A DNA stretch of 64,000 nucleotides from assembly GCA_903931735.1 (NCBI GenBank), contig CAIZDL010000062.1, positions 1-64,000 of the forward strand, written 5' to 3'. The DNA comes from an uncultured Rhodospirillales bacterium (GTDB lineage Bacteria; Pseudomonadota; Alphaproteobacteria; Azospirillales; Azospirillaceae). Both the position numbers and the translations under genes were made by a program. Below, piece after piece: positions 1,525 to 64,000 of this stretch (position 1 is its first letter; each line of letters opens with the position of its first letter). The notes below the pieces were generated by a model. It saw only the letters and a list, made by a program, of their open reading frames with translations, did not search any database and was not told where the DNA came from.

Positions 1525-2016
1525 CTGCGCTGTATGCTCGCATTCGCAATGACGGGCAAGCGCGGTGGGCCGAATCCCCTCGTGAAAACTGCATTTTTAA
1601 TAAAGTATGAACCAAAATTTTTCGCCCCAGATGAACCGAAATCCGCTGCTGCACTGCGCAAACTTGGTAAACGAAGACTTGGATAAACGGGGAATATCTT
1701 TTTTGCACTAAACGCCGATGTTACGGATATCACAAAGGTATTCGGGACGATGACCCGTTACGTCCGATTGGAAAGTTCGTTAACGGCCGTGTGTTCTCGC
1801 AAAAAAGATAAAAATCTTTGCAAAATGTGCTTGACCCCCCTGCGACATTTTGTCATTGGTCGGACAGGCGTTCGCTCATGCAGCGCCGAAATCCTTTGGG
1901 GAGGCGGTGGCGGCAACAGGCCGGATACCGGTGATTCAAGGGCGTGCCTCCCGGCACCCACCCGTCCCAGACGGGGTAACGACAGCCCCTCTCATGAGAG
2001 GCGGAAGACAGGGAGA

Positions 2017-2685
2017 ATGGTGATGACGGTTACAGCGAAACGGACAGGACGAGTGGCGGGTTATGTTGCCGCCTTGATTGTTGGACTCGGATTGGGACTA
2101 CCGCTGGACCGCCCCGCCCAAGCTGGTGAAAACGACTGCCACACCAATACGTCGGTGGTCGAGCGCCAGCTTCACATTCCAAATGGTTTGCTGCTCGCCA
2201 TCTCGTTGGTTGAGAGCGGTGTCGATGGCGTCCCGCAGCCTAACGCGCTGTCGCTCGGTATCCGCACGGTTCACACCCACAGCCGGGCTGACGCGATCAA
2301 CCACATTCAGGGCCGGAACGGGGCGCTGCGCAAAGACGCCTTCGTTGGCTGTATGCAGTTGTCGGTTCGGCATCACCGGGTCGCCTTCCATTCGTTGGAG
2401 GCGATGTTGGAGCCCAAATCCAACATCTGGTATGCCGGCCACATGCTGGTTCGGATGCACGGCGAAACCGGGAGCTGGTCGGGGGCGGTGGCCAGGTATC
2501 AGGGCGGTTCACGCACCCAGGCTCACCATTACGTTTGCCGGGTCTGGAATCATCTGGCGGAATTGGATTGGAGCAGCGCCAAAACCTTGGAGCCCCGCCG
2601 TTGCGGCGAGATGGCCCCACCGGAAATTGCGCCCAAGACCCGCAAAGCTTTCGAGCAGGCGCAGGTCGCGGCGAACCCGGAATAA
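2017..2685 (+). CDS. Lytic transglycosylase-like (SLT domain) secreted protein
   Basis: Signal peptide; LLLAISLVESGVDG and MQLS...GHMLVR...AVARYQGG; ATG 2017 preceded by GGGAGA. Confidence 0.75.
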   Translation: MVMTVTAKRTGRVAGYVAALIVGLGLGLPLDRPAQAGENDCHTNTSVVERQLHIPNGLLLAISLVESGVDGVPQPNALSLGIRTVHTHSRADAINHIQGRNGALRKDAFVGCMQLSVRHHRVAFHSLEAMLEPKSNIWYAGHMLVRMHGETGSWSGAVARYQGGSRTQAHHYVCRVWNHLAELDWSSAKTLEPRRCGEMAPPEIAPKTRKAFEQAQVAANPE

Positions 2686-6234: not shown

Positions 6235-6891
6235 TTAGGCGAGGGGCGGAAACACCTCGTCCCACGCGGCACGAAGGGCGGCGTCGACCTCTTCCATCGT
6301 CACCAAATGGCCGAGGGCGTGGATCGAGGTGACTCCGTGTTCGCGGATGCCGCAGGGGACGATGCCGCGGAAATGGCTGAGGTTGGGCTCGACATTCAGC
6401 GCGACGCCGTGAAAGCTCACCCAGCGCCGGACCCGCACACCGAGGGCGGCGATTTTTTCTTCCTGGCCGGGCGCGCCGCCATAGGGCTTTTTATCGACCC
6501 AAATGCCGACGCGGTTGGGTCGGCGCTCTCCTTTGATCCCGAACTGCGCCAGGGTGTTGATCAGCCAGCGTTCCAGATCGCAAACAAAGGCCCGGATATC
6601 GGGTTTGCGCCTTTGCAGGTCGATCATAACATAGCCGACTCGTTGTCCCGGCCCGTGGTAAGTATATTGGCCGCCGCGTCCGGCTTGATACACCGGAAAG
6701 CGGCCCCGGTCGAGTAGATCCCCCGGCTGGGCGCTGGTCCCGGCGGTATAGAGCGAGGGGTGCTCCAACAGCCAAACCAATTCGGGCGCGGTCCCCGCGC
6801 GAATCGCGGCAACCCGAGTTTCCATCTCGGCCAAAGCTTCAGGATAAGACACCGGTTGCTCGCTGATTTTCCATTCAAGGGCCGAGGTCAT
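6235..6891 (-). CDS. lipB: Octanoyltransferase (lipoate biosynthesis)
   Basis: [52 protein letters not shown]; start at ATG 6891. Confidence 0.95.
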
Positions 6892-32310: not shown

Positions 32311-33994
32311 GCCTCTCTTCGTCGAGTAGGTCCTTGCGGGAAAGCTTGCCGACCATGGTTCGGGGCAGAGACGGGCGGAATTCCACCAGCTTTGGCATTT
32401 CGATCGGCGAGAGCTTGTCTTTGAGGAAGGCCAGCAGGGCCGGCTTATCGAGGGTCGCGCCATCGGTGAGCTTGATATAGGCCTTAACGGTCTGGCCGCG
32501 ATAGGCATCGGGGATGCCGGCCACCACCACTTCTTCAACATCGGGGTGGAGGTAAATCGCCTCTTCCACGTTGCGTGGATAGATATTGAAGCCGCCGGCA
32601 AGAATGAGGTCTTTGATCCGGTCGACGATGGTGACATAGCCTTCGCTGTCCATGATGCCGATATCGCCGGTATGAAGCCGTCCATTCTTTATGGTGCGCG
32701 CGGTGTCTTCGGGGCGGTTCCAGTAACCTTTCATCACCTGGGGGCCGCGAATGCAAATTTCGCCGCGCTCGCCGGGGGGCAGCACAACGGTGTCGTCGGT
32801 GAGGCTGACAATCTCCACCACCGTTCCCGGCACCGGCAACCCGACCGAGCCCGCTTTATAGCTGCCCCGGATCGGGGTAATGCAGGCGACCGGCGACGAT
32901 TCGGAGAGGCCATAGCCCTCGATCACCACGCAACCGGTGTGGGACTCAAACTGCTCCTTCACCTCTTGGGGCAGCGGCGCTCCGCCCGAAATGCAAAAGC
33001 GGATGGAAGAGAGATCGTGGTCGGCCCGCTCGGGGTGGGCGTTGATGGCGGTGTAGATTGTCGGCACCGCCGGAAACAAGGTCGGCTTTTTGGTGTCGAT
33101 CAGGTCGAGCACATCATCGAGGTCGAAGCGCGGGACGAGCACGATTTCCGCACCCAGGATCATCGCGGCGTTGAGGGCCACGGTCATGGCGAAAACGTGG
33201 AAGAACGGCAGCACTGCCAGCATTCGTTCCTCGCCCGGTTCGGCTTCAGAAAACCACAGGACACATTGATAGGCGTTGGCGGTGAGGTTGGCATGGGTCA
33301 GCATCGCGCCCTTGGGGGTGCCGGTGGTGCCCCCGGTATACTGCAACACCGCGACATCTTCGGCGGGGTTGATCTCCACTGGCTTGGGGCGGCCCATAGT
33401 GGTGGTGAGGCTGCTGTAGCTGAGGTGGGCGGAGTCGTGGGGAATGTGGTGAGCGATTTCGGACCGCCGGACCACCGGGAAGAGCATACTTTTTGGGAAC
33501 GGCAGGCAATCGGCCATCCGGCACACCACGATGCGCTTTAGCGCGGTTTTGCCCAAGAGCGGCGCCAATTTATCGTAGAGTATGGCAAGGTCGAGCGTGA
33601 ACATGATCGAGGTGCCGCTATCGTCGATTTGGTGGGTAAGCTCCTGCTCGGCGTAGAGCGGGTTGAAATTAACCACCGTCGCCCCGATCCGCAAAATAGC
33701 GAAGTAGGCGATAACGTAATAGGGCGTGTTGGGCAAGAAGAGGCCAATGTGATCGCCCTTGCCCAGCCCGAGTTTTTGCAAGCCCTCAGCCAGATATCCA
33801 ACCTGCCGGGCCACTTCCCGGTAGGTATAGTGTTTGTCCATAAAATCGAGGAAGCGGTGACTGCCATATTTGGCGACCACGGTATCGAAGGCTTCGGGGA
33901 GCGATTGGGCCGGGAGCGGGGCATCCCAGTCCACCCCTTCGGGATAATGCGCGAGCCAGGGGAAGGGGTGTTCGGTTGCGCTGGTCTGGTCCAT
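32282..33994 (-). CDS. fadD: Long-chain fatty-acid--CoA ligase
   Basis: YTGGTTGTPKGAMLTH; GYGLSESSP; GEICIRGPQVMKGYWNRPEDTA; TGDIGIMDSEGYVTIVDRIKDLILAGGFNIYPRNVEE. Confidence 0.95.
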   Translation of the reverse strand: MDQTSATEHPFPWLAHYPEGVDWDAPLPAQSLPEAFDTVVAKYGSHRFLDFMDKHYTYREVARQVGYLAEGLQKLGLGKGDHIGLFLPNTPYYVIAYFAILRIGATVVNFNPLYAEQELTHQIDDSGTSIMFTLDLAILYDKLAPLLGKTALKRIVVCRMADCLPFPKSMLFPVVRRSEIAHHIPHDSAHLSYSSLTTTMGRPKPVEINPAEDVAVLQYTGGTTGTPKGAMLTHANLTANAYQCVLWFSEAEPGEERMLAVLPFFHVFAMTVALNAAMILGAEIVLVPRFDLDDVLDLIDTKKPTLFPAVPTIYTAINAHPERADHDLSSIRFCISGGAPLPQEVKEQFESHTGCVVIEGYGLSESSPVACITPIRGSYKAGSVGLPVPGTVVEIVSLTDDTVVLPPGERGEICIRGPQVMKGYWNRPEDTARTIKNGRLHTGDIGIMDSEGYVTIVDRIKDLILAGGFNIYPRNVEEAIYLHPDVEEVVVAGIPDAYRGQTVKAYIKLTDGATLDKPALLAFLKDKLSPIEMPKLVEFRPSLPRTMVGKLSRKDLLDEERRGASVNVLG

Positions 33995-34290
33995 GGCTGC
34001 TCTCCCGTTGCCGCTGCCGACTCGAAAGCCGGGCCTTTCATGCTGCATTAAGCCATTCACGGGGCCGAGGCAAGACCGGCGGCCGGTCGCGTCATTGCCG
34101 AAGGGGCGGGAAAATAGGCCTCATCCTATTGATATTTCGAAATGCTGGGCCGGACCTCTATAAAATTATTCTGGTGAAGTTTATCGGGCTGTGCCTACAC
34201 TGCCCATTGGCGGAAGTGGCTCTTTTGCCTACCGGGGACCCCGGTTCGTTCAACAGCGCTCGTGCGCGTCGGTGCGGAGGTGGTCAGGAC

Positions 34291-34830
34291 GTGTCTCGCC
34301 TCAGTCAGCAGAATGCCGAGACGTTCGGTAACGAAGGTACTCAGGCAAAAGCCATGGTGAAGTGGTTTAACGTCATCAAGGGCTTTGGATTCGTGGCTCC
34401 GGTTGATGGGACCCCGGATGCTTTTCTTCACATATCCGTGCTTAACCGGGCCGGTTTGCAAGAACTGGCCGATGGCACCGAGATTTCGTGCGAAATCGTG
34501 GCCGGGCCGAAGGGGCCTCAGGTCGCGCGGATCGTCGATGTGCTGGAGGGCGCTCCTGTTGCTCTGCCGCCGCCGGAGCGGGGCCGGAATGGACGGGAGG
34601 TGGATGCGGTGCTCGGGCCGGCGGTGGAGATGGCCGGCACGGTGAAGTGGTTTAAGGCCGACAAGGGCTTTGGCTTCGTCACCGCCGACGATTCGTCCAA
34701 AGATGTCTTTGTCCATAAAAGTGTGCTGCGCCGGTGCGGCCTTACCCAACTGGAGGCCGGACAGCGGGTGCAGATGAAGGTTCAGGACGCTCAAAAGGGC
34801 CGAGAGGCGACCTGGATTCTTCCGGTTTAG
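34291..34830 (+). CDS. Cold-shock protein with two tandem CSD domains
   Basis: AMVKWFNVIKGFGFVAP..DAFLHISV and GTVKWFKADKGFGFVTADDSSKDVFVHKSVL; GTG start with upstream GGAGG. Confidence 0.88.
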   Translation: MSRLSQQNAETFGNEGTQAKAMVKWFNVIKGFGFVAPVDGTPDAFLHISVLNRAGLQELADGTEISCEIVAGPKGPQVARIVDVLEGAPVALPPPERGRNGREVDAVLGPAVEMAGTVKWFKADKGFGFVTADDSSKDVFVHKSVLRRCGLTQLEAGQRVQMKVQDAQKGREATWILPV

Positions 34831-39487: not shown

Positions 39488-39811
39488 TTGCCGGGCAACC
39501 ACCGGACACACCCACGACCGCTAGGTGTCGCCGGTCGGCGCCGCCTAATCGGCCGTGCTCAAGATTTACCCAAGGTGGCGGCTCGCCGGTGCGCTGTCAA
39601 CCCCACATTTTGCAATGCCGAAGACCGCCGCTACAAGAAATTGACCAAGATTTCCGGTAACGCTCTTAAGCGGCCCCTTGTTCGGGGGAAGTGAGGAGAC
39701 TAGGTTACCGTTCGTTAATATATTTGGTGCATAACTCTCTTGGCGCAACGGGACCCTTGGTTGTGGTTTCCCGGCTTTGCCTCGGCGCGTGCCCCTATTG
39801 AGGGATTGTTG

Positions 39812-42715
39812 ATGATGGTCAAGGCGGAAGTCCTGGTCCTCGATGTCACGTCGGGCGCGGCCGTGCCTGCCCCGGTTATTCCGGCGCGGTTGCCGTTGAG
39901 CGCTACGTTAAAAGAGTTGGCGGCGCAGCATGGCGGCACCGAGGCGCTACGGCCGGCGGTGCTTGCGGCGACCCGGCAGGCGTTGAGCGAAGGCCGGGCC
40001 GAGATCCGGCAACAATTCGATGGCAACGGCAGCGGCGAAATTTGCGTTCGGCGCAATAGCGAATTGATGGATACGATCATCATTTCGCTGGCCGATCTGG
40101 TGCAGAATTATGTTTATCCCAGCGCCGGCCCTTCCACCGGGGAGGCGTTTGATATCGCGGCCACGGGCGGGTACGGCCGGGGCGAAATCTGCCCGCAATC
40201 CGATATCGATCTGCTGTTTTTGCTGCCCTACAAGCGCACGGTGCGGGTCGAGCAGATCGTCGAGTACATGCTCTATATCCTGTGGGATTTGGGGCTGAAG
40301 GTCGGGCACGCGGTGCGTCCGGTTGAAGATTGTTTGCGCCAAGCCAAAACCGATGTGACGATTCGCACCAACCTTTTGGAAACCCGCCGCCTGTGGGGCG
40401 ACGGCCAATTGCTGGCACTGCTCAAGCGCCGGCTCTCTAAAGAGGTGATCCAGCCCAATGGCCCGGAATTTGTGCTGGCCAAGCTGGCCGAGCGCGATGA
40501 GCGCCACCAGCGCATGGGCGACAGCCGCTATGTTTTGGAGCCGAACGTCAAGGAAGCCAAGGGCGGGCTGCGGGATCTGCAAACGCTGATCTGGATCGCC
40601 AAGCACCTTTATTATGTCAACTCGATGGATGATCTGGTTACCTGCGGCGTGCTGCTGAAGGAAGAGGCGACCCGGTTTATCAAGGCGCAAAACTTCCTGT
40701 GGACCGTCCGCTGCCACTTGCACTACCTGAGCGGCCGACCCGAAGACCGCCTGACCTTCGACGTTCAAACTGAAATCGGTCGGCGCATGGGCTACATGGA
40801 CCGTGCCGGGCTGGTGAGCGTCGAGCGTTTCATGAAGCACTATTTCCTGATCGCCAAAGATGTTGGCGACCTCACGCGGATTTTTTGCGCCGCGCTTGAG
40901 GCCGACGCCAAACGGCCGCCGCGCTTCAACCTGTTGCGGCTGGGTCTTGCCAAAGTCAAAGAGATCGAGGGCTTTCAGCTTGACGGCGAGCGGCTGAACC
41001 TGCGGCACGACCGCCAGTTCCGCGAGGAGCCGGTGGATATGATCCGGCTGTTTTACGTTTCCCAGCGCCATGGGCTCGATGTTCATCCCCATGCGCTGCG
41101 GGCGCTCAGCCGGGCGTTGGGTGGGCTTGCCAAGCTGCGCCAGGACCCCGAAGCCAACCGCCTGTTCATGGAGATTTTAACCAGCCGCAAGGACCCGGAA
41201 GAATCGTTGCGCCGGATGAACGAGGCCGGCGTGCTGGGCCGCTTTCTGCCCGACTTCGGCCGGGTGGTTGCGCAAATGCAATACGACATGTACCACGCCT
41301 ATACGGTGGATGAGCACACCTTGCGGGCGGTTGGCATTATGAACAAAATCGACACCGGCGGGTGTGTCGAAGAATTGCCGCTGGCCTCCCAGGTCATTCA
41401 TAAGTTGACCTCGCGCCGCGCCCTTTACGTTGCCATGTTGTTGCACGATGTTGCCAAGGGCCGGGGGGGCGATCATTCGGTGGTCGGCGCCAAGCTTGCG
41501 GAAAAGCTCTGCCCGCGCCTTGGTCTCAGCGCCGAAGAGACCGAGACGGTGGCGTGGTTGGTCTTCAACCACCTGAAAATGTCGTTCATCGCCTTCAAGC
41601 GCGACTTTGAGGACGAGCGGACAGTGCGGGATTTCGTTAAAATGGCCCAGTCGCCCGAGCGGCTGCGGTTGTTGCTGGTGCTGACGACCGCCGACATCAA
41701 CGCCGTCGGTGCCGGTCGGTGGAACAACTGGAAGGCGACGCTGCTCGCCGAGCTGTATCACCGCACCGAGGAGGTTTTGGCCGGCGGCGTCACGGCCGAG
41801 GGCCGGGTCCATCGCATCAAGCACGCCCAAGAGGTGCTGCGGGGCAAGCTCGATGATTGGGGCGGGGCGCAGTTTGAACGCCACATCGCCCTGGGTTCGC
41901 CTGACTATTGGTTGTCGCTGGATAGTGAGACCCACGCCCGCCACGCCCGGATGATTCGCGACGCCGAGCGCGAGGGCCGGTTATTGACCATCGATACCCG
42001 GGTTGATTTGTCCCGCGCCGTGACCGAGGTGACGATTTACACCGGCGACCATCCGGGGCTGTTTTCGCAATTGGCCGGGGCGCTGGCCCTGAGCGGCGCC
42101 AACATTGTGGATGCCAAGATCTTCACCCTGCGCAACGGTCAGGCGTTGGATATCTTCTCGGTCCAGGATGCCCATTCGGGCGAAGCCTTTGATGCGCCGG
42201 AAAAGCTGGCCAAGCTGACCGTCATCACCGAGCAAACCTTGGCCGGGCAAGTCCGGCTGCTTCAGGAGTTGGCCAAGCGCCGGCCCGCCGCGCCTCAGCG
42301 CACCAGCATGTTTAAGGTGCCGCCACGGGTGATGATCGATAATACCGCCGGCACCAATCACACCGTGATCGAGGTGAATGGCAAAGACCGGCCGGGTTTG
42401 CTTTACGATGTGACCCGCACGCTGACCGACCTCGGGCTCCAAATTTCGTCGGCCAAAATTTCGACCTATGGCGAAAAGGTGATCGACGTTTTTTATGTCC
42501 GCGATGTTTACGGGCTTAAGATAACCCATGACGCCAAGCTTCAGCGCATCCGCGACCGGTTGCTTCATTCGCTGACCAGCTCGGCGACACCGGGGAGCGC
42601 CACCCCGGTAGTACGGCCGGCACCCCCAAGCGCGAGCGGCACCGAACGGCGCCGCGCCCGGATTCGGCCAGCCAAGCCCCGGTCCGGCGGCCCAACTGGG
42701 GCGGGCGGGGCGTAG
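39812..42715 (+). CDS. glnD: [Protein-PII] uridylyltransferase / uridylyl-removing enzyme
   Basis: NTase GGYGRGEICPQSDIDLLFL; HD domain LLHDVAKGRGGDHS; two C-terminal ACT domains. Confidence 0.97.
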   Translation: MMVKAEVLVLDVTSGAAVPAPVIPARLPLSATLKELAAQHGGTEALRPAVLAATRQALSEGRAEIRQQFDGNGSGEICVRRNSELMDTIIISLADLVQNYVYPSAGPSTGEAFDIAATGGYGRGEICPQSDIDLLFLLPYKRTVRVEQIVEYMLYILWDLGLKVGHAVRPVEDCLRQAKTDVTIRTNLLETRRLWGDGQLLALLKRRLSKEVIQPNGPEFVLAKLAERDERHQRMGDSRYVLEPNVKEAKGGLRDLQTLIWIAKHLYYVNSMDDLVTCGVLLKEEATRFIKAQNFLWTVRCHLHYLSGRPEDRLTFDVQTEIGRRMGYMDRAGLVSVERFMKHYFLIAKDVGDLTRIFCAALEADAKRPPRFNLLRLGLAKVKEIEGFQLDGERLNLRHDRQFREEPVDMIRLFYVSQRHGLDVHPHALRALSRALGGLAKLRQDPEANRLFMEILTSRKDPEESLRRMNEAGVLGRFLPDFGRVVAQMQYDMYHAYTVDEHTLRAVGIMNKIDTGGCVEELPLASQVIHKLTSRRALYVAMLLHDVAKGRGGDHSVVGAKLAEKLCPRLGLSAEETETVAWLVFNHLKMSFIAFKRDFEDERTVRDFVKMAQSPERLRLLLVLTTADINAVGAGRWNNWKATLLAELYHRTEEVLAGGVTAEGRVHRIKHAQEVLRGKLDDWGGAQFERHIALGSPDYWLSLDSETHARHARMIRDAEREGRLLTIDTRVDLSRAVTEVTIYTGDHPGLFSQLAGALALSGANIVDAKIFTLRNGQALDIFSVQDAHSGEAFDAPEKLAKLTVITEQTLAGQVRLLQELAKRRPAAPQRTSMFKVPPRVMIDNTAGTNHTVIEVNGKDRPGLLYDVTRTLTDLGLQISSAKISTYGEKVIDVFYVRDVYGLKITHDAKLQRIRDRLLHSLTSSATPGSATPVVRPAPPSASGTERRRARIRPAKPRSGGPTGAGGA

Positions 42716-43101: not shown

Positions 43102-43452
43102 ATGATTCGTGTCCGCGCTCTTCTTCTTTCGCTGGCGATTGTAATGACGGCCGGGTCTATTTCCGGAGTCGCGCTGGCGGAGACCGCAATGCCCGCTCCG
43201 GCACAGCCTTTCATCGATAAGGCCGTGCCGTTCTATGGCTGTGGCATTGGCGTTGCTATTGGCGCAGCCTCGGTTGCTTTTCCCCGGTCGATGACACAGT
43301 GGACGTTTTACCAGGGGGTTTATCCCTCGATGGCAACGGTGCTGTGGCGCTCGACGCTGGGCTGCTTTTATGGCGTGGTTGGCGGTACGGTGCTCTCGGC
43401 GACGCAGTCGACCTTCCGCAAGGTCGGCGATGCTTGGCATCGCGTGTTCTGA
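43102..43452 (+). CDS. Small exported double glycine-zipper protein, paralog A
   Basis: Signal peptide; FIDKAVPFYGCGIGVAIGAASVAFP..LGCFYGVVGGTV; paralogous to the next gene. Confidence 0.7.
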   Translation: MIRVRALLLSLAIVMTAGSISGVALAETAMPAPAQPFIDKAVPFYGCGIGVAIGAASVAFPRSMTQWTFYQGVYPSMATVLWRSTLGCFYGVVGGTVLSATQSTFRKVGDAWHRVF

Positions 43453-43509
43453 GGACGAACCCGTGATCCAATCCCGCGCAAAATGGCACTCGCTGGCGAT
43501 GAGACGGGC

Positions 43510-43899
43510 ATGAGAGTCCTCTTGGTGCTCATGGCTGTGCTGGTGATGCTCGGGTCGGTGGCCGGGGAGGTCCGCGCAGCGCCAGCGATGGCAGCCGAGT
43601 CCGATGCGCCGGAGGGGCGGCCGCTCGATTCCTCCAAGCTGCCCAAAAAGCCGCCCTTCATCGATAAGAACGTGGTGTTCCTGACCTGTGCCAGCGGTGC
43701 CTCGCTCGGCGCGCTGGTTACCGGTTTGCCGCCGGTGATGGGCTGGATTCCCTATTCGGGGTGGCCGACCCAGGTCAGCTCGCTCGCCCTGCGCATGGGC
43801 TTTGGCTGTTACTATGGTGTGATGGCGGGCGTTGCCGCCTCTGGCACCTATTCCTTGACCCGGATGGCCGGCGAGGCTTGGAACAGCTTTTTCCATTGA
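43510..43899 (+). CDS. Small exported double glycine-zipper protein, paralog B
   Basis: Signal peptide; FIDKNVVFLTCASGASLGALVTGLPP..FGCYYGVMAGVA. Confidence 0.7.
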   Translation: MRVLLVLMAVLVMLGSVAGEVRAAPAMAAESDAPEGRPLDSSKLPKKPPFIDKNVVFLTCASGASLGALVTGLPPVMGWIPYSGWPTQVSSLALRMGFGCYYGVMAGVAASGTYSLTRMAGEAWNSFFH

Positions 43900-43957: not shown

Positions 43958-46921
43958 TTACTCGGCGCCGCCTTCGTTGGTCGACCACTCCTCGACCCGC
44001 GCCAGGTGGGTGTAGTCGTTGAAGCGCGGGGCGTGGCGTGGCCGGGGCAGAGCGCGGTAGGGAGTTGCCGGGTCATCGAAGGTCCAGATCAGGGCCTCCA
44101 GGCCTTGGTGTGCTTCGCGCGCCAAATCGCTGGCGGTTCCTCGCACCGGCTTTTCTTCCCCCGGCGGGTCGCCGCCGCCAAGGCGCCAATAGGCCAGCTC
44201 CGTCACGGTGGCGGGGCCAAGGCCGTCAAATCCGCCCGATTCGGCCAGCGCCGCCTCCAGTGCCATTTGGGGCGAAAGCCCAAGGGCGATGTCGCCGGGG
44301 CTGGGCAGGGTGCCGGTTTTATAATCGATGATACTAAGCCCGCCGGTTTGTAACCGGTCGATTCGGTCGGCCTTGGCGGTGAGGGTGAAGGGGCCGGCGC
44401 GGCCATCAAATTCCATCCGCCCCAAAACTTCGGTTGCAAGCGGCAGGCTGTGGGGCCGGCGCCCCCGTTCCATCGCCACAAACCAGTGAGCGACGCGCTC
44501 GAACCGCGGCCACCAAAAGGCCCAAACCTCGGGCCGGGCCAGCATGTTGCCGAAGGCGTCGCGGCCGTGCTGAAGCAACAGGTCCACCGCATTGGCCGGC
44601 AGCGCGGTGGGCCACTCCTTAATAAAGTGGTCGAGCGCTTTGTGGATGAACTGACCGCGTTCGGCGGCGCCGGGGTCGGCTGCAATCGGCTCCAGCGCCC
44701 GCAGCTTCAGCACATGGCGAGCGTAAATGATGTAGGGGTCGCGCATCCAGGCTTCAATCTCGGTCACCGCCAGTTTGCGGGGGCGGGCCGAAACCGGCGG
44801 GCGCGGCTCGGGCGCGCTCACCGGGCGCACGAAGTCGGGCTCGTCCAGGCCGCGCGCCCAGGCCAGCCATTGGGGGGCCTCTTGTTCAATGTGCCGGTCG
44901 AGGTTCAGCGCGCGAAGCACGGTTTCCAGCCGCGATAGCCAGCGCGATGGCACCGTGGGCGCCCCTTCCACCCGCACGGCGCGGGTCAACACCACCTCGG
45001 GCGCGGTGGCGGCTTGGGCAAAATCGTGCGCTGAAAGGCCAATCGAGCGCTCGGGCGCCGGCAGCCCAAAGGTCTTGCGCATCGGCCGCGAAAGCCACGG
45101 GTCGGGCGCGGGCTCGGCTGGCCAGCCGCCTTCGTTGAGCCCCGAAAGGACCATCAGGTCGACGTGCTGAAGCCGCGCTTCCAGCGGCCCGAGAATCGCC
45201 AGCCGGGGGTGATGGCCAAAGCGGGGCCGAACCACCCGCCCCTTCATCAACGCCTCAAACAATCCGGGATAGTCGCGGGCCGGGACGGCGGGAAAGTCGC
45301 GCGCCGCGCTCAGCAGATCGTTGATCAGCGCTGCCGCTGTTTCGCCGTCGTCATGCCGCCATAAACGCTCGGCGCCGCTCATCTCGGTGGTGCGGGCCAT
45401 GGCTTCGGCAAAGGCGATGTGGGCACGCAAAAAATCGGCGAAGGGTGCTCCGCTCGGCTGCCGTGCCAGAGCCAAAAACGGCGCGGCGTCGGCGCCCAAC
45501 CGCTCGACCCCGGCCACCAGCTCGGCAGAGAAGCGGGTTTCGGCAACGGCGGTGAGGCCGGCGAGCAGGCCTTCAATCCCCTCCGCCGGGCGCGGGCCGC
45601 GCAGCACCGCCTTTTCCAGGCCACGGGTAAAGGCGTGGCAGCCGCTGGGGGTGGTGCCGGCAGTGGTGAGCGGGTGTTTGAACAGCGCCAACAACGCCAC
45701 CGGGGCAAACCGTGCTTCAAGCGCGCCGGCGCACAGGTTGAGGAAACTGCCCGCTGCGGTGTCGGCCAGAGGCTGTCCGCCCGAGTCGTTGACCTTGATC
45801 TCCCACCGGCTGAGGGCAGTGGCCACCCGGCGCGCGAGGGTGCGGTCGGGCGTGACCAGGGCTGCCGAGCGTTCGGGTGTTTCGAGAGCGTGGCGCAACA
45901 GCATCGCCACCACCTCGGCCTCGTCTTGGGCGGTTGGGCAATCGATGCGGGTGAGGCCGGCGAGGGCCGAGCCATCCAATCCCTCCAGCGCCCGCCAATG
46001 GTCGGTGGTGGCGGCCGGGCGCAACACTTCGGCGATCAGGCGCGCGCGGGCGCCTCGCTCTGGCTGCACCCCCGGACGCCAGGGCGCGACCTTGCTGCGC
46101 GGCAGGTGGAGTCGTTCCAGTAACCGGGCCAGCGTGTGTTGGGGGTGGGCTTCGTCGGCGCTGATCGCCTCCCAGCCGGCTTCATCGGTGGTGGTATCGA
46201 GGCCGGGCAGCACCAACATGCCCTGGGGCAGCCCCGCGATCACCTCCAGCAGCGCGCCGGTCGCGGGGATTGAGCCGGTGGAGCCGGCGGCAATCACCGG
46301 CCCCGAGGGCGGGCGGTCGCGCCACGCGGCGGCTTGGGCCGCCAGCACCCGGTTGCGTCGGGCGGCGGCGTCGATTGCGCCCTCTTCGGCCAAAATTTCG
46401 GGCCATTGCTGGGTAAGGATGGTGAGAAAGCACAGCGTCAATTGCCAGTGGTGGGCATAATCTTCCGGCACCAGCCCGTTGAGGGCGGAAAAGCTCAGGC
46501 CCTCGGTTTCGACCTGATCCAGCAGGTGCGTAAGATCGGCGGCGAGGCGCACCGCCTGGGGCGCGGTTGCGGCCATATTGGGGGCAGCAAGAACGAACCG
46601 GGTTAGCAACAACCGCCGCCGCAGCTCGTTAATCGCCGGGGGCAGATCGAGTGCGCCGGCCAGCGCCGGGAGTTCTTCCAGCGTCAACCCCAGCTCCTCG
46701 GCGTCGAGGTCGCCCAGCGGGGCCATGCCGGGCAGCAACAGGGGCTTGCCATCGGTTTGGCGGAGAAACGCTTCCCGCAGCGAGCGGCAGGCGCGCCGGG
46801 TGGGCAACAACACCGTAACTCCGGCCAGCACCAACGGGTCGGTTCCGAAACGAGAGAGTATCCCCGTGGCTAGTTCATCAACGAACGAGAAGCCGGCCGG
46901 AATCGTGTAAACACTCGTCAT
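43958..46921 (-). CDS. addB: Double-strand break repair protein AddB
   Basis: LLPTRRACRSLREAFL; LSGLNEGGWPAEPAPDPWLSRPMRK; PD-(D/E)XK nuclease SIIDYKTGTLPS..QMALEAAL. Confidence 0.93.
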   Translation of the reverse strand: MTSVYTIPAGFSFVDELATGILSRFGTDPLVLAGVTVLLPTRRACRSLREAFLRQTDGKPLLLPGMAPLGDLDAEELGLTLEELPALAGALDLPPAINELRRRLLLTRFVLAAPNMAATAPQAVRLAADLTHLLDQVETEGLSFSALNGLVPEDYAHHWQLTLCFLTILTQQWPEILAEEGAIDAAARRNRVLAAQAAAWRDRPPSGPVIAAGSTGSIPATGALLEVIAGLPQGMLVLPGLDTTTDEAGWEAISADEAHPQHTLARLLERLHLPRSKVAPWRPGVQPERGARARLIAEVLRPAATTDHWRALEGLDGSALAGLTRIDCPTAQDEAEVVAMLLRHALETPERSAALVTPDRTLARRVATALSRWEIKVNDSGGQPLADTAAGSFLNLCAGALEARFAPVALLALFKHPLTTAGTTPSGCHAFTRGLEKAVLRGPRPAEGIEGLLAGLTAVAETRFSAELVAGVERLGADAAPFLALARQPSGAPFADFLRAHIAFAEAMARTTEMSGAERLWRHDDGETAAALINDLLSAARDFPAVPARDYPGLFEALMKGRVVRPRFGHHPRLAILGPLEARLQHVDLMVLSGLNEGGWPAEPAPDPWLSRPMRKTFGLPAPERSIGLSAHDFAQAATAPEVVLTRAVRVEGAPTVPSRWLSRLETVLRALNLDRHIEQEAPQWLAWARGLDEPDFVRPVSAPEPRPPVSARPRKLAVTEIEAWMRDPYIIYARHVLKLRALEPIAADPGAAERGQFIHKALDHFIKEWPTALPANAVDLLLQHGRDAFGNMLARPEVWAFWWPRFERVAHWFVAMERGRRPHSLPLATEVLGRMEFDGRAGPFTLTAKADRIDRLQTGGLSIIDYKTGTLPSPGDIALGLSPQMALEAALAESGGFDGLGPATVTELAYWRLGGGDPPGEEKPVRGTASDLAREAHQGLEALIWTFDDPATPYRALPRPRHAPRFNDYTHLARVEEWSTNEGGAE

Positions 46922-47636
46922 GGCGGTCGAACCAATCGTTGGTGGCTTGGAGGGCTTCGGGCGTGCCGACGTGGAACCACTCGCCATCGTGGACGACGCC
47001 TTGAAGGCGCCCGGTCCGCAGCGCCCGGTCCCAAACCAAGTTGGTTGAAAACGCCCCCTCGGGGGTGTCGGCAAAGAGGCGCGGCGAGATGATCTGTACG
47101 CCCGAAAAAACGTAAGGCGCGGCGTTGCCTTTGCCGGGGCGGGCCAGCCGGCCATCTATTTCGATATCGAAATCACCCTGGCCGTGATAGCCGTGCGCGC
47201 GCTCGGTCGGCATGATCAGCAACAGCGCGTCCATGGTGGCTTCGTTCCAGGCGCCGACCAATCGTCGGATGGCCTGCTCTTTGCCATCGAGCCACAAAAT
47301 ATCGGCGTTGGCGGATAGAAAGGGCCGGGAGCCCAAATGCGCCAGCGCGAGCTTGATCCCGCCCCCGGTTTCCAGTGGACTGGGCTCGGGAGAAAGGATG
47401 ATGGTGGGCTGGGTGCGCCGGCTAAGGTGATCTGCGATCATTTCGCCAAGGTAACAATAATTCACCACCGCCGTGGTCAGCCCGGCCGCCGCGATCCGGT
47501 TGAGCGCGTGGTCAAGCAGGGTGATACCGGCCACGGTCAGTAGTGGCTTTGGCCGGGTCAGGGTCAGCGGTCGCATCCGCACCCCAAGGCCGGCAGCCAG
47601 GACCATTGCATGGGTAATCGGCGAGCGCTCGGTCAT
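46878..47636 (-). CDS. murU: Nucleotidyltransferase (MurU-like)
   Basis: AMVLAAGLGVRMRPLTLTRPKPLLTVAGITLLDHALNR; adjacency to AmgK-like kinase. Confidence 0.88.
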   Translation of the reverse strand: MTERSPITHAMVLAAGLGVRMRPLTLTRPKPLLTVAGITLLDHALNRIAAAGLTTAVVNYCYLGEMIADHLSRRTQPTIILSPEPSPLETGGGIKLALAHLGSRPFLSANADILWLDGKEQAIRRLVGAWNEATMDALLLIMPTERAHGYHGQGDFDIEIDGRLARPGKGNAAPYVFSGVQIISPRLFADTPEGAFSTNLVWDRALRTGRLQGVVHDGEWFHVGTPEALQATNDWFDRHDECLHDSGRLLVR

Positions 47637-62549: not shown

Positions 62550-63068
62550 ATGGTTTCGCTGCCGGTTGCAAAGTTTCGGGTTGGGCTCATCGGCCTTGGG
62601 CTTGGTGCCGGGGCGGGGCTTGCGGCGTGCGAATATCCGGCGGTATCGAAGGTTGAGCCCAACCCCGTCGCTTATGTTCGGCCGGCGGGCGCGCCGCCCA
62701 TTGCCAGCGGCAGCGGCGGCCTTGTTCCTTATGTGGCGATAACCGTGCCGCCGTCGCAGCAGCCCCGGCCACCGCAAAAGCAAGCCCCGCCGCCGGCACT
62801 GCCGCCGTCGCCACCGCCGTTGCCCGCGCGGCCCGATAATCTTTCGTGGTGGGAAAGCTTGCTCTATGGCGCGACGGTGGGCGGCATTTTAGCGGTCGAT
62901 CAGGCCGATAAACTCGCCGACAAGGCCCTTGATCAGGCGGAGAAACTGGGCGGCGTGGCGGTCGATCAGGCTGATAAGCTGACAAAGCCGGTGCCGCCGC
63001 CGGTGGTGACGGTGCCGGTTTATACCGCGCCGGTTTATGGCCCCGCCGGAGCGCGCTCTGGTTATTGA
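62550..63068 (+). CDS. Predicted proline-rich lipoprotein with DQADKL repeats
   Basis: AGLAAC lipobox; Pro-rich linker; VDQADKLADKALDQAEKLGGVAVDQADKLTKP. Confidence 0.65.
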   Translation: MVSLPVAKFRVGLIGLGLGAGAGLAACEYPAVSKVEPNPVAYVRPAGAPPIASGSGGLVPYVAITVPPSQQPRPPQKQAPPPALPPSPPPLPARPDNLSWWESLLYGATVGGILAVDQADKLADKALDQAEKLGGVAVDQADKLTKPVPPPVVTVPVYTAPVYGPAGARSGY

Positions 63069-63466
63069 GGCGGGGCGCTCTGGCCTTTAGCCAGGTTGAG
63101 CAGCCATTGGGTGCCGATTGCGGTGGCGCCCCCGCCGGCGCCGATTGCGCAGCCGAACAGCCCGGTTCCCAGGAGCGCCACTGCGGTAAGCGGTGCGGCC
63201 ACGCCGGCAAGAGCGGGCAGGCTGTGGGCGACCATGCCGGCGACCGCGCCAGCGCTACAGGCGATGATTACGGTGTCGGGGCTCATAAATTTTTCGGCGC
63301 GCTTTTTGAGCAGCAGCACCGACGGGCCATCGCTGACCGGCCCCGCCATCATGCTGATGATGTAGGGATCAAAGAGTTGGGCCTGGGCGCTTCCTGGCAA
63401 TCCAAGGGTGGTTGCTCCCCCGAGCGCGAGCGCCGCGCCGGAAAGGGCGCCGATAAATCGTTTCAC
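63062..63466 (-). CDS. Small exported double glycine-zipper protein, paralog C
   Basis: GTG 63466, signal peptide ending AQAQ; VIIACSAGAVAGMVAHSLP..GLFGCAIGAGGGATAIG; 4-nt overlap with the upstream EAL-like gene. Confidence 0.65.
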   Translation of the reverse strand: MKRFIGALSGAALALGGATTLGLPGSAQAQLFDPYIISMMAGPVSDGPSVLLLKKRAEKFMSPDTVIIACSAGAVAGMVAHSLPALAGVAAPLTAVALLGTGLFGCAIGAGGGATAIGTQWLLNLAKGQSAPPQ

Positions 63467-64000
63467 GATGACGGAGCGCTTTCTGCATCGGCGCCGCCGG
63501 AGGCGAGCTTGTCGATGATCCAGCCTTGGTACTTGTTGAGATTGAACGCCTTGCCCACCGGCAGCACCGAGTCCTTTTCGCAGTGGCATAAGATGATTTT
63601 TTCGCGGGGCAGTTTTTTTAGCGATGCCAAGCAGTCGCTATCCCTAAGGAGCCACATTGTTGACGGTGAGATCACGATTTTGATGTAATCGAAGTCGACG
63701 CGTTGCAAATTGGTGATGCCTAAAAGGTCGAGCGTGATGCCATCGAGGGCGATGCCGACTTCGGCTTCGCGCATTATTTTGAGCGCTTTCGCCGTGGCGC
63801 GAGGTTGGTGCATGAGATCCGAGCGGTTGATCTCCAGGATCATCGATTTGCGATCGAGTTGGGGCGCGTCGTGAATGAGCTTGGTGAAATAGGGGCCGGT
63901 GAAGGTGCTCAGCCCGATGTTGAGGCTAAACCGGCGCCCGGGTCTGGCGTGGTTTCGGCGGATAATTTCGGGGATGCTGCGCCGGTCCAGCGCCCGGCAC
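63463..64000 (-). CDS. Degenerate EAL-domain-like protein (truncated by the window edge)
   Basis: FSLNIGLSTFTGPYF..SMILEINRSDL..IALDGITLDLLGITNLQRVDFDYIKIVISP follows EAL topology without the DDFG-type catalytic motif. Confidence 0.6.
   Translation of the reverse strand, partial: CRALDRRSIPEIIRRNHARPGRRFSLNIGLSTFTGPYFTKLIHDAPQLDRKSMILEINRSDLMHQPRATAKALKIMREAEVGIALDGITLDLLGITNLQRVDFDYIKIVISPSTMWLLRDSDCLASLKKLPREKIILCHCEKDSVLPVGKAFNLNKYQGWIIDKLASGGADAESAPSS

Follow-up and report, generated by a model that had tools for sequence, protein, structure and literature searches.

Tandem genes for small exported two-helix proteins with an invariant cysteine pair in an Azospirillaceae genome

The analysed stretch of DNA (hereafter the window) comprises 64,000 nucleotides (nt), positions 1 to 64,000 of contig CAIZDL010000062.1 of an uncultured Rhodospirillales bacterium (assembly GCA_903931735.1, GTDB family Azospirillaceae), and carries a tandem pair of genes, here named A and B, which encode small exported proteins with one cysteine (Cys) in each of two glycine-rich helices. 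An original prediction made from the sequence alone had placed two such open reading frames (ORFs) beside addB, and both were found there, the neighbours on either side being glnD and addB as identified by NCBIfam equivalog models. A further copy lies near the end of the window, and the three genes are as follows.

43102–43452, + strand: gene A, ATG start, 116 amino acids (aa); signal peptide, then helix 1 (C47-x2-G50-x3-G54, P61) and helix 2 (G87-C88-x2-G91-x3-G95); Cys codons at 43240–43242 and 43363–43365
43510–43899, + strand: gene B, ATG at 43510, where the signal peptide begins, 129 aa; layout as in gene A (C60-x2-G63-x3-G67, P; then G99-C100-x2-G-x3-G); Cys codons at 43687–43689 and 43807–43809
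63062–63466, − strand: third copy, subfamily F, GTG start, 134 aa; F-type pre-helix segment MMAGPVSDGPSVLLLKKRAEKFMS; Cys codons at 63257–63259 and 63149–63151

The end of gene A and the start of gene B are separated by 57 nt; the program-listed ORF of gene B opens at 43483, 27 nt ahead of the ATG. The two proteins matched each other with an E-value of about 1e-10, the motif string described earlier occurs in both of them, and the number of residues between the two Cys, 40 in A and 39 in B, was as claimed.

A family of exported two-helix proteins with an invariant cysteine pair

The home genome (G000; 3.48 Mb, 291 contigs) was searched with A and B, which resulted in six paralogs: the three on the window's contig and one each on contigs C113, C88 and C48. 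The original prediction had counted three copies, of which the third proved genuine, with 35 residues between its Cys, but the family is wider, with six paralogs in this genome and tandem sets in other genera and in Gammaproteobacteria. The other four congeners had six or more members each, and about six to seven were present in three additional genera of the family-level group; overall, members were present in 9 of the 83 genomes and 5 of the 14 genera of this group. In the Azospirillum-type genus g12, one genome among many (G808) had members, a single pair of subfamilies E and F (E+F), and each of the four genomes in a small gammaproteobacterial order contained exactly two members, in tandem. 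Copies range from two to about seven per genome where the family occurs. Members were confined to the window's own genome both in a 387-genome sample of the class and in a 399-genome sample of the phylum, and plasmids and phages returned no family match by tblastn. The family is thus patchy in distribution, and is either old nonetheless or has passed between classes.

On the basis of a 43-sequence alignment, both Cys (C1 and C2) were invariant, and glycine (Gly) was present at C1+3 in 42, at C1+7 in 40, at C2+3 in 38 and at C2+7 in 40 sequences, the remainder being alanine (Ala) or serine (Ser), with one asparagine. Since the earlier pattern searches had required Cys, the search was repeated on 24 genomes with every Cys masked to X; this profile gave 57 strong and three weak matches, and the Cys pair was present in all 60. 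Conservation of both Cys and of the Gly or small positions, which the original prediction had set as its own test, was thus borne out by the alignment and by the masked profile. Two further low-scoring masked matches (G012:C36 and G010) were discarded, as their translations look like unrelated proteins.

The spacing was 39 intervening residues in 44 of 57 sequences, with a full range of 34–42; the exceptions include the F copy of the window (35 residues) and some D copies (34–35). In the full-length proteins C1 was located at residue 43–91 and the tail after C2 also varied widely, and therefore the lengths outside the hairpin vary freely. Nearly every mature protein had exactly two Cys. The family definition (signal peptide, C-x2-small-x3-small twice, about 39 residues between the Cys) fits A, B, F and all matches, apart from these exceptions and one outlying G002 protein, whose N-terminal region is basic and takes the place of a clear signal peptide.

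The weak masked matches were located at L124 1464–2018 (−), L072 about 6300–6725 (+) and L185 about 1843–2157 (+), with E-values of 7.7e-4 to 0.01 and the Cys pair kept. Exactly 39 residues separate the Cys in the L124 and L072 outliers; the former has a basic N-terminus, and its divergent neighbour is a second TMEM43 gene.

In six ortholog pairs between G000 and G002, the ratio of nonsynonymous to synonymous substitution rates (dN/dS) was 0.11–0.30, indicative of purifying selection, the values being approximate since dS was 0.7–1.1. Against their G002 orthologs, A gave 0.11, B 0.14 and the F copy 0.30. The family members are real, constrained genes, and the pattern seen in A and B is well beyond chance, because there are six homologous paralogs, A and B match each other at E of about 1e-10, dN/dS is as low as stated, and the Cys pair persists in 60 of 60 masked matches. 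That Cys was never replaced while the neighbouring small positions vary argues that the two residues are more than space fillers.

Both helices exceeded 20 kcal/mol per 20 residues on the Goldman-Engelman-Steitz (GES) scale in all 58 sequences, and A-x-A occurred at residues 15–40, within the signal-peptide region, in 47 of these. The hydrophobicity, sufficient in both helices for spanning a membrane, supports the earlier view that the proteins are exported and membrane-embedded. The N-terminal segment of the mature proteins is acidic, with a mean charge of −1.8, whereas the loop tends to be slightly basic; a topology with both termini outside and the loop in the cytoplasm is predicted. The residues at C, +3 and +7 fall on a single helix face. 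AlphaFold2, with low confidence, placed helices at 53–72 and 85–128 in B and at 78–104 and 110–152 in an E member; both models consist of two helices with a short turn, and the midpoint between the Cys is within about 2 residues of the turn centre, so that the two Cys would be about level on facing helices. The first idea, with the Cys at opposite ends of the hairpin, was abandoned once the models showed unequal helix lengths.

The family is absent from the libraries searched, in agreement with the earlier remark that no described family could be recognised. In hmmscan searches of 38 members (20 + 18) against Pfam at E-values up to 1, no match was obtained to Tim17/Tim22/Tim23, Romo1/Mgr2, a cofactor family or the glycine-zipper 2TM families, and the Pfam scans returned sub-threshold noise only (best 0.018 for Melittin and 0.021 for Oleosin). 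The PHROG scan was likewise sub-threshold (best 0.0033, one member), NCBIfam gave no family match, PADLOC models of anti-phage defence gave 0 matches with seven members, and profile searches of the PDB gave nothing significant. Foldseek against the PDB produced no row at E ≤0.001, several rows being the ATP synthase c-subunit at non-significant E-values of 3.5–9.6. No description of the family was found in the open-access literature. A, B and their relatives are one family of exported two-helix membrane proteins.

One glycine-rich match in G915 (E = 4.7e-5; L143 5583–6095) has no Cys and was taken as compositional. Another family, of small hairpin-like proteins that are exported, rich in glycine and devoid of Cys, with the pattern MRRL..ALIALIGVLP..AQTQTQ...LGAIAG, occurs in tandem sets of two or three at L130 10826–12031 (three genes), L127 1–219 and L045 9971–10925 (−); hhalign detected no relation between it and the Cys family (probability 0.3%). 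In addition, a reading frame of near-perfect decapeptide repeats GAGAAVGFGV was found at a contig end in G002 (contig C1; L060 1–375, + strand).

Gene order and neighbourhood

The genes next to the family members in the window are the following.

39740–42715, + strand: glnD, upstream neighbour of the A/B pair (NCBIfam NF003467 equivalog, 1294 bits)
43958–47155, − strand: addB, convergent downstream neighbour of the pair (NCBIfam TIGR02786 equivalog, 1034 bits)
63463–63999, − strand: 3′ part of an EAL-domain gene (Pfam PF00563, E = 5.6e-10), which runs off the window and overlaps the start of the F copy, as likewise at locus L071

In a tree of the core (77 columns, several inner branches unsure), the split between {E, F, G} and {A, B, C, D} was fully supported. 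The order A-then-B was found in eight species belonging to four genera, with B assigned less surely in G011 and G014, and the order glnD-then-A was found again in other genera. The pair follows glnD in G000, G001 and G002, and in G003 and G004 an adjacent A/B pair was present with no glnD alongside within the stretch read. Between glnD and murJ, five copies were located in G012 and A, B and C in G011, and the A and B reading frames of G014 overlap by 4 nt. AddB is not part of the A/B system, because the downstream neighbour differs in other species.

The E+F pair was identified in all four genomes of the gammaproteobacterial order and in G808, where the two genes overlap by 14 nt and follow a CCA-transferase-like gene. 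Judging from translations, the E+F region of G808 and the E locus in the genus of the window have NUDIX and MoxR-type genes in common; this suggests vertical inheritance and loss. A DUF2061-like gene is situated ahead of the pair in two of the four gammaproteobacterial genomes; in these genes, just upstream of the pair (L046 4879–5496 and L117 7070–7618, −), the domain is apparently duplicated.

In 5 of 5 congeners a TMEM43 gene (Pfam PF07787) immediately precedes subfamily D, and E adjoins an L-2-hydroxyglutarate-oxidase-like gene in five congeners (NCBIfam match below the equivalog cut-off). F overlaps the EAL gene in G000 and G002, the GTG start of the window's copy sharing bases with the TGA of the upstream EAL-like gene (GTGA), and in G003 it overlaps another exported ORF. 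Two TMEM43 (PF07787) genes are present in G000, at C88:32312–33103 and C41:15715–16446 (L058, L154), and no TMEM43 was found in seven genomes of the group without Cys-pair members or in 14 control genomes. TMEM43 was rejected as a general partner, as G011, G808 and the four gammaproteobacterial genomes lack it and no family member adjoins the second TMEM43 gene in G000. The neighbours at the family loci comprise glnD, murJ, serS, the L-2-hydroxyglutarate-oxidase-like enzyme, TMEM43 and EAL genes; because no one partner is common to all loci, the context gives leads and not a function.

Elsewhere in the window, the translation of the ORF at 33976–34830 (+) apparently contains two cold-shock-type domains in one protein.

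Interpretation of the cysteine pair

According to our preferred reading, held tentatively at a probability of about 45%, A and B are inner-membrane hairpins in which stripes of small residues pack the paralogs and the Cys pair acts as a staple or as a buried thiol pair. The proteins would be made as small Sec-exported inner-membrane proteins with the signal peptide cut, leaving an acidic periplasmic segment, then a two-helix hairpin with both termini out and a short cytoplasmic loop. One face of each helix would bear a stripe made up of the Cys and two small residues (C, +3, +7), and these stripes would pack the helices within a hairpin and between paralogs, giving hetero-oligomers, e.g. A/B or E/F. 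The two Cys, at similar height towards the periplasmic side of the facing helices, would most probably be joined in a stapling disulfide or remain as a pair of buried thiols, and set the geometry. We infer the topology, the facing of the Cys, the disulfide and the hetero-assembly; our guess is that the family has a structural or adaptor function in the cell envelope. Disulfide tethering between molecules, which had been among the original suggestions, is possible, and a link or thiol pair inside one molecule appears at least as likely, because both Cys are modelled about level on one hairpin. The pore-forming activity that had also been suggested is speculative.

Three observations weigh against this reading. 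The AlphaFold2 confidence was low (mean predicted local distance difference test score 65, predicted template modelling score 0.32–0.33; 16 sequences), and therefore helix-helix packing is not established. The two models offset the Cys by about one helical turn in opposite directions, and packing of Cys on Gly without a disulfide therefore fits equally well. Finally, A, C, D, E and F are also found singly, so that pairing is common and not obligatory.

The Cys could be mere small packing residues, reduced in the membrane and without any part in redox chemistry or disulfides, and the proteins glycine-zipper-like hairpins by which the inner membrane is thickened or organised. Each Cys shares its helix face with two small residues (0, +3, +7) in the sequence and in the models stands at about the height of the partner helix's first Gly, as such packing would have it; yet Ala, Ser and Gly would serve equally, and Ala and Ser do replace Gly at the Gly positions, whereas Cys was replaced in 0 of the 60 masked matches, and we regard this explanation as somewhat unlikely. 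The invariance of the pair, its fixed spacing and the presence of exactly two Cys in nearly every mature protein would also suit a redox sensor or a metal site, with four Cys joined by two hairpins in an oligomer or with a complex switched by an envelope redox system. No metal-binding or redox partner recurs beside the genes, however, and Pfam returned no cofactor family, which makes this improbable. A more far-reaching proposal, redox-gated or metal-bearing heteromeric inner-membrane complexes in which the Cys of each helix meet inside the bilayer and the paralog pairs are obligate subunits, appears to us equally improbable; if true, it would represent a previously undescribed type of membrane module.

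CdzC/CdzD and the class IIb bacteriocins (PMC5380434) are likewise tandem pairs of small glycine-zipper proteins, and the A/B pair might by analogy be a two-peptide bacteriocin or a Cdz-type contact-dependent toxin that inserts into neighbouring cells. The N-termini, however, resemble Sec signal peptides with A-x-A and not a type I leader, and no type I secretion gene (ATP-binding cassette exporter) was recognised beside the family loci read. Neither was an immunity gene seen there, the family members themselves being the only recurrent small membrane genes, though an unfamiliar immunity protein could escape notice. The copies occupy conserved chromosomal places by housekeeping genes in related species, with none found on plasmids or phages; the gene context does not favour a bacteriocin, and we consider one highly doubtful. 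Distant kinship with the mitochondrial Tim17/Tim22/Tim23 or Romo1/Mgr2 proteins, which likewise have GxxxG helices and conserved Cys, is scarcely credible. The logic is similar, in that a Cys pair beside GxxxG helices would link transmembrane (TM) helices TM1 and TM2, as the disulfides of Tim17 and Tim22 do (PMC11850723), and the first Foldseek row was a complex I chain (E = 2.3, not significant), but the 38 Pfam scans and the PDB profiles gave no match, and Tim17 differs in its four TM helices with Cys outside TM1 and TM2, when the A/B family combines a signal peptide with just two helices, inside which the Cys lie.

A specific role is implied by the two to about seven paralogs per genome, the purifying selection and two intramembrane Cys that are never lost, in a family named by no library searched. 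A Cys pair serving as a redox or metal site would constitute a new kind of membrane sensor. The G808 species with its single E+F pair would be a convenient test organism, if cultured, and the family alignment provides a clean profile for annotating such hypothetical proteins.

Comparison with known systems

The glycine-zipper 2TM families of Pfam (such as Rick_17kDa_Anti, Gly-zipper_Omp and Gly-zipper_YMGG) are exported and contain a two-helix region rich in small residues, as does the A/B family, which matched none of these models in the 38 scans; to our knowledge, none of them has an invariant Cys in each helix. The ATP synthase c-subunit is also a glycine-rich helical hairpin, with both termini periplasmic. 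Unlike it, the A/B family has a signal peptide, no conserved carboxylate in the second helix and no sequence match to the c-subunit.

CdzC/CdzD, the glycine-zipper bacteriocin pair of Caulobacter crescentus (PMC5380434), resembles A/B in that two small glycine-zipper proteins of an alphaproteobacterium are encoded in tandem, whereas the A/B family is distinguished by Sec-type signal peptides, the invariant Cys pair and chromosomal places common to related species. TM1 and TM2 are joined by a disulfide in Tim17 and Tim22, and Tim17 has four TM helices with its Cys outside TM1 and TM2 (PMC11850723). The likeness of these proteins to the A/B family, GxxxG helices and a two-Cys staple between TM1 and TM2, would be one of design only; they have no signal peptide, and membership fails by sequence and layout. 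If the Cys pair of the A/B family is a staple, the TM1–TM2 disulfides of Tim17 and Tim22 would have a bacterial parallel in a far smaller protein. Small glycine-zipper membrane proteins as such are known; a hairpin with Cys set in the zipper, present as many paralogs, is new.
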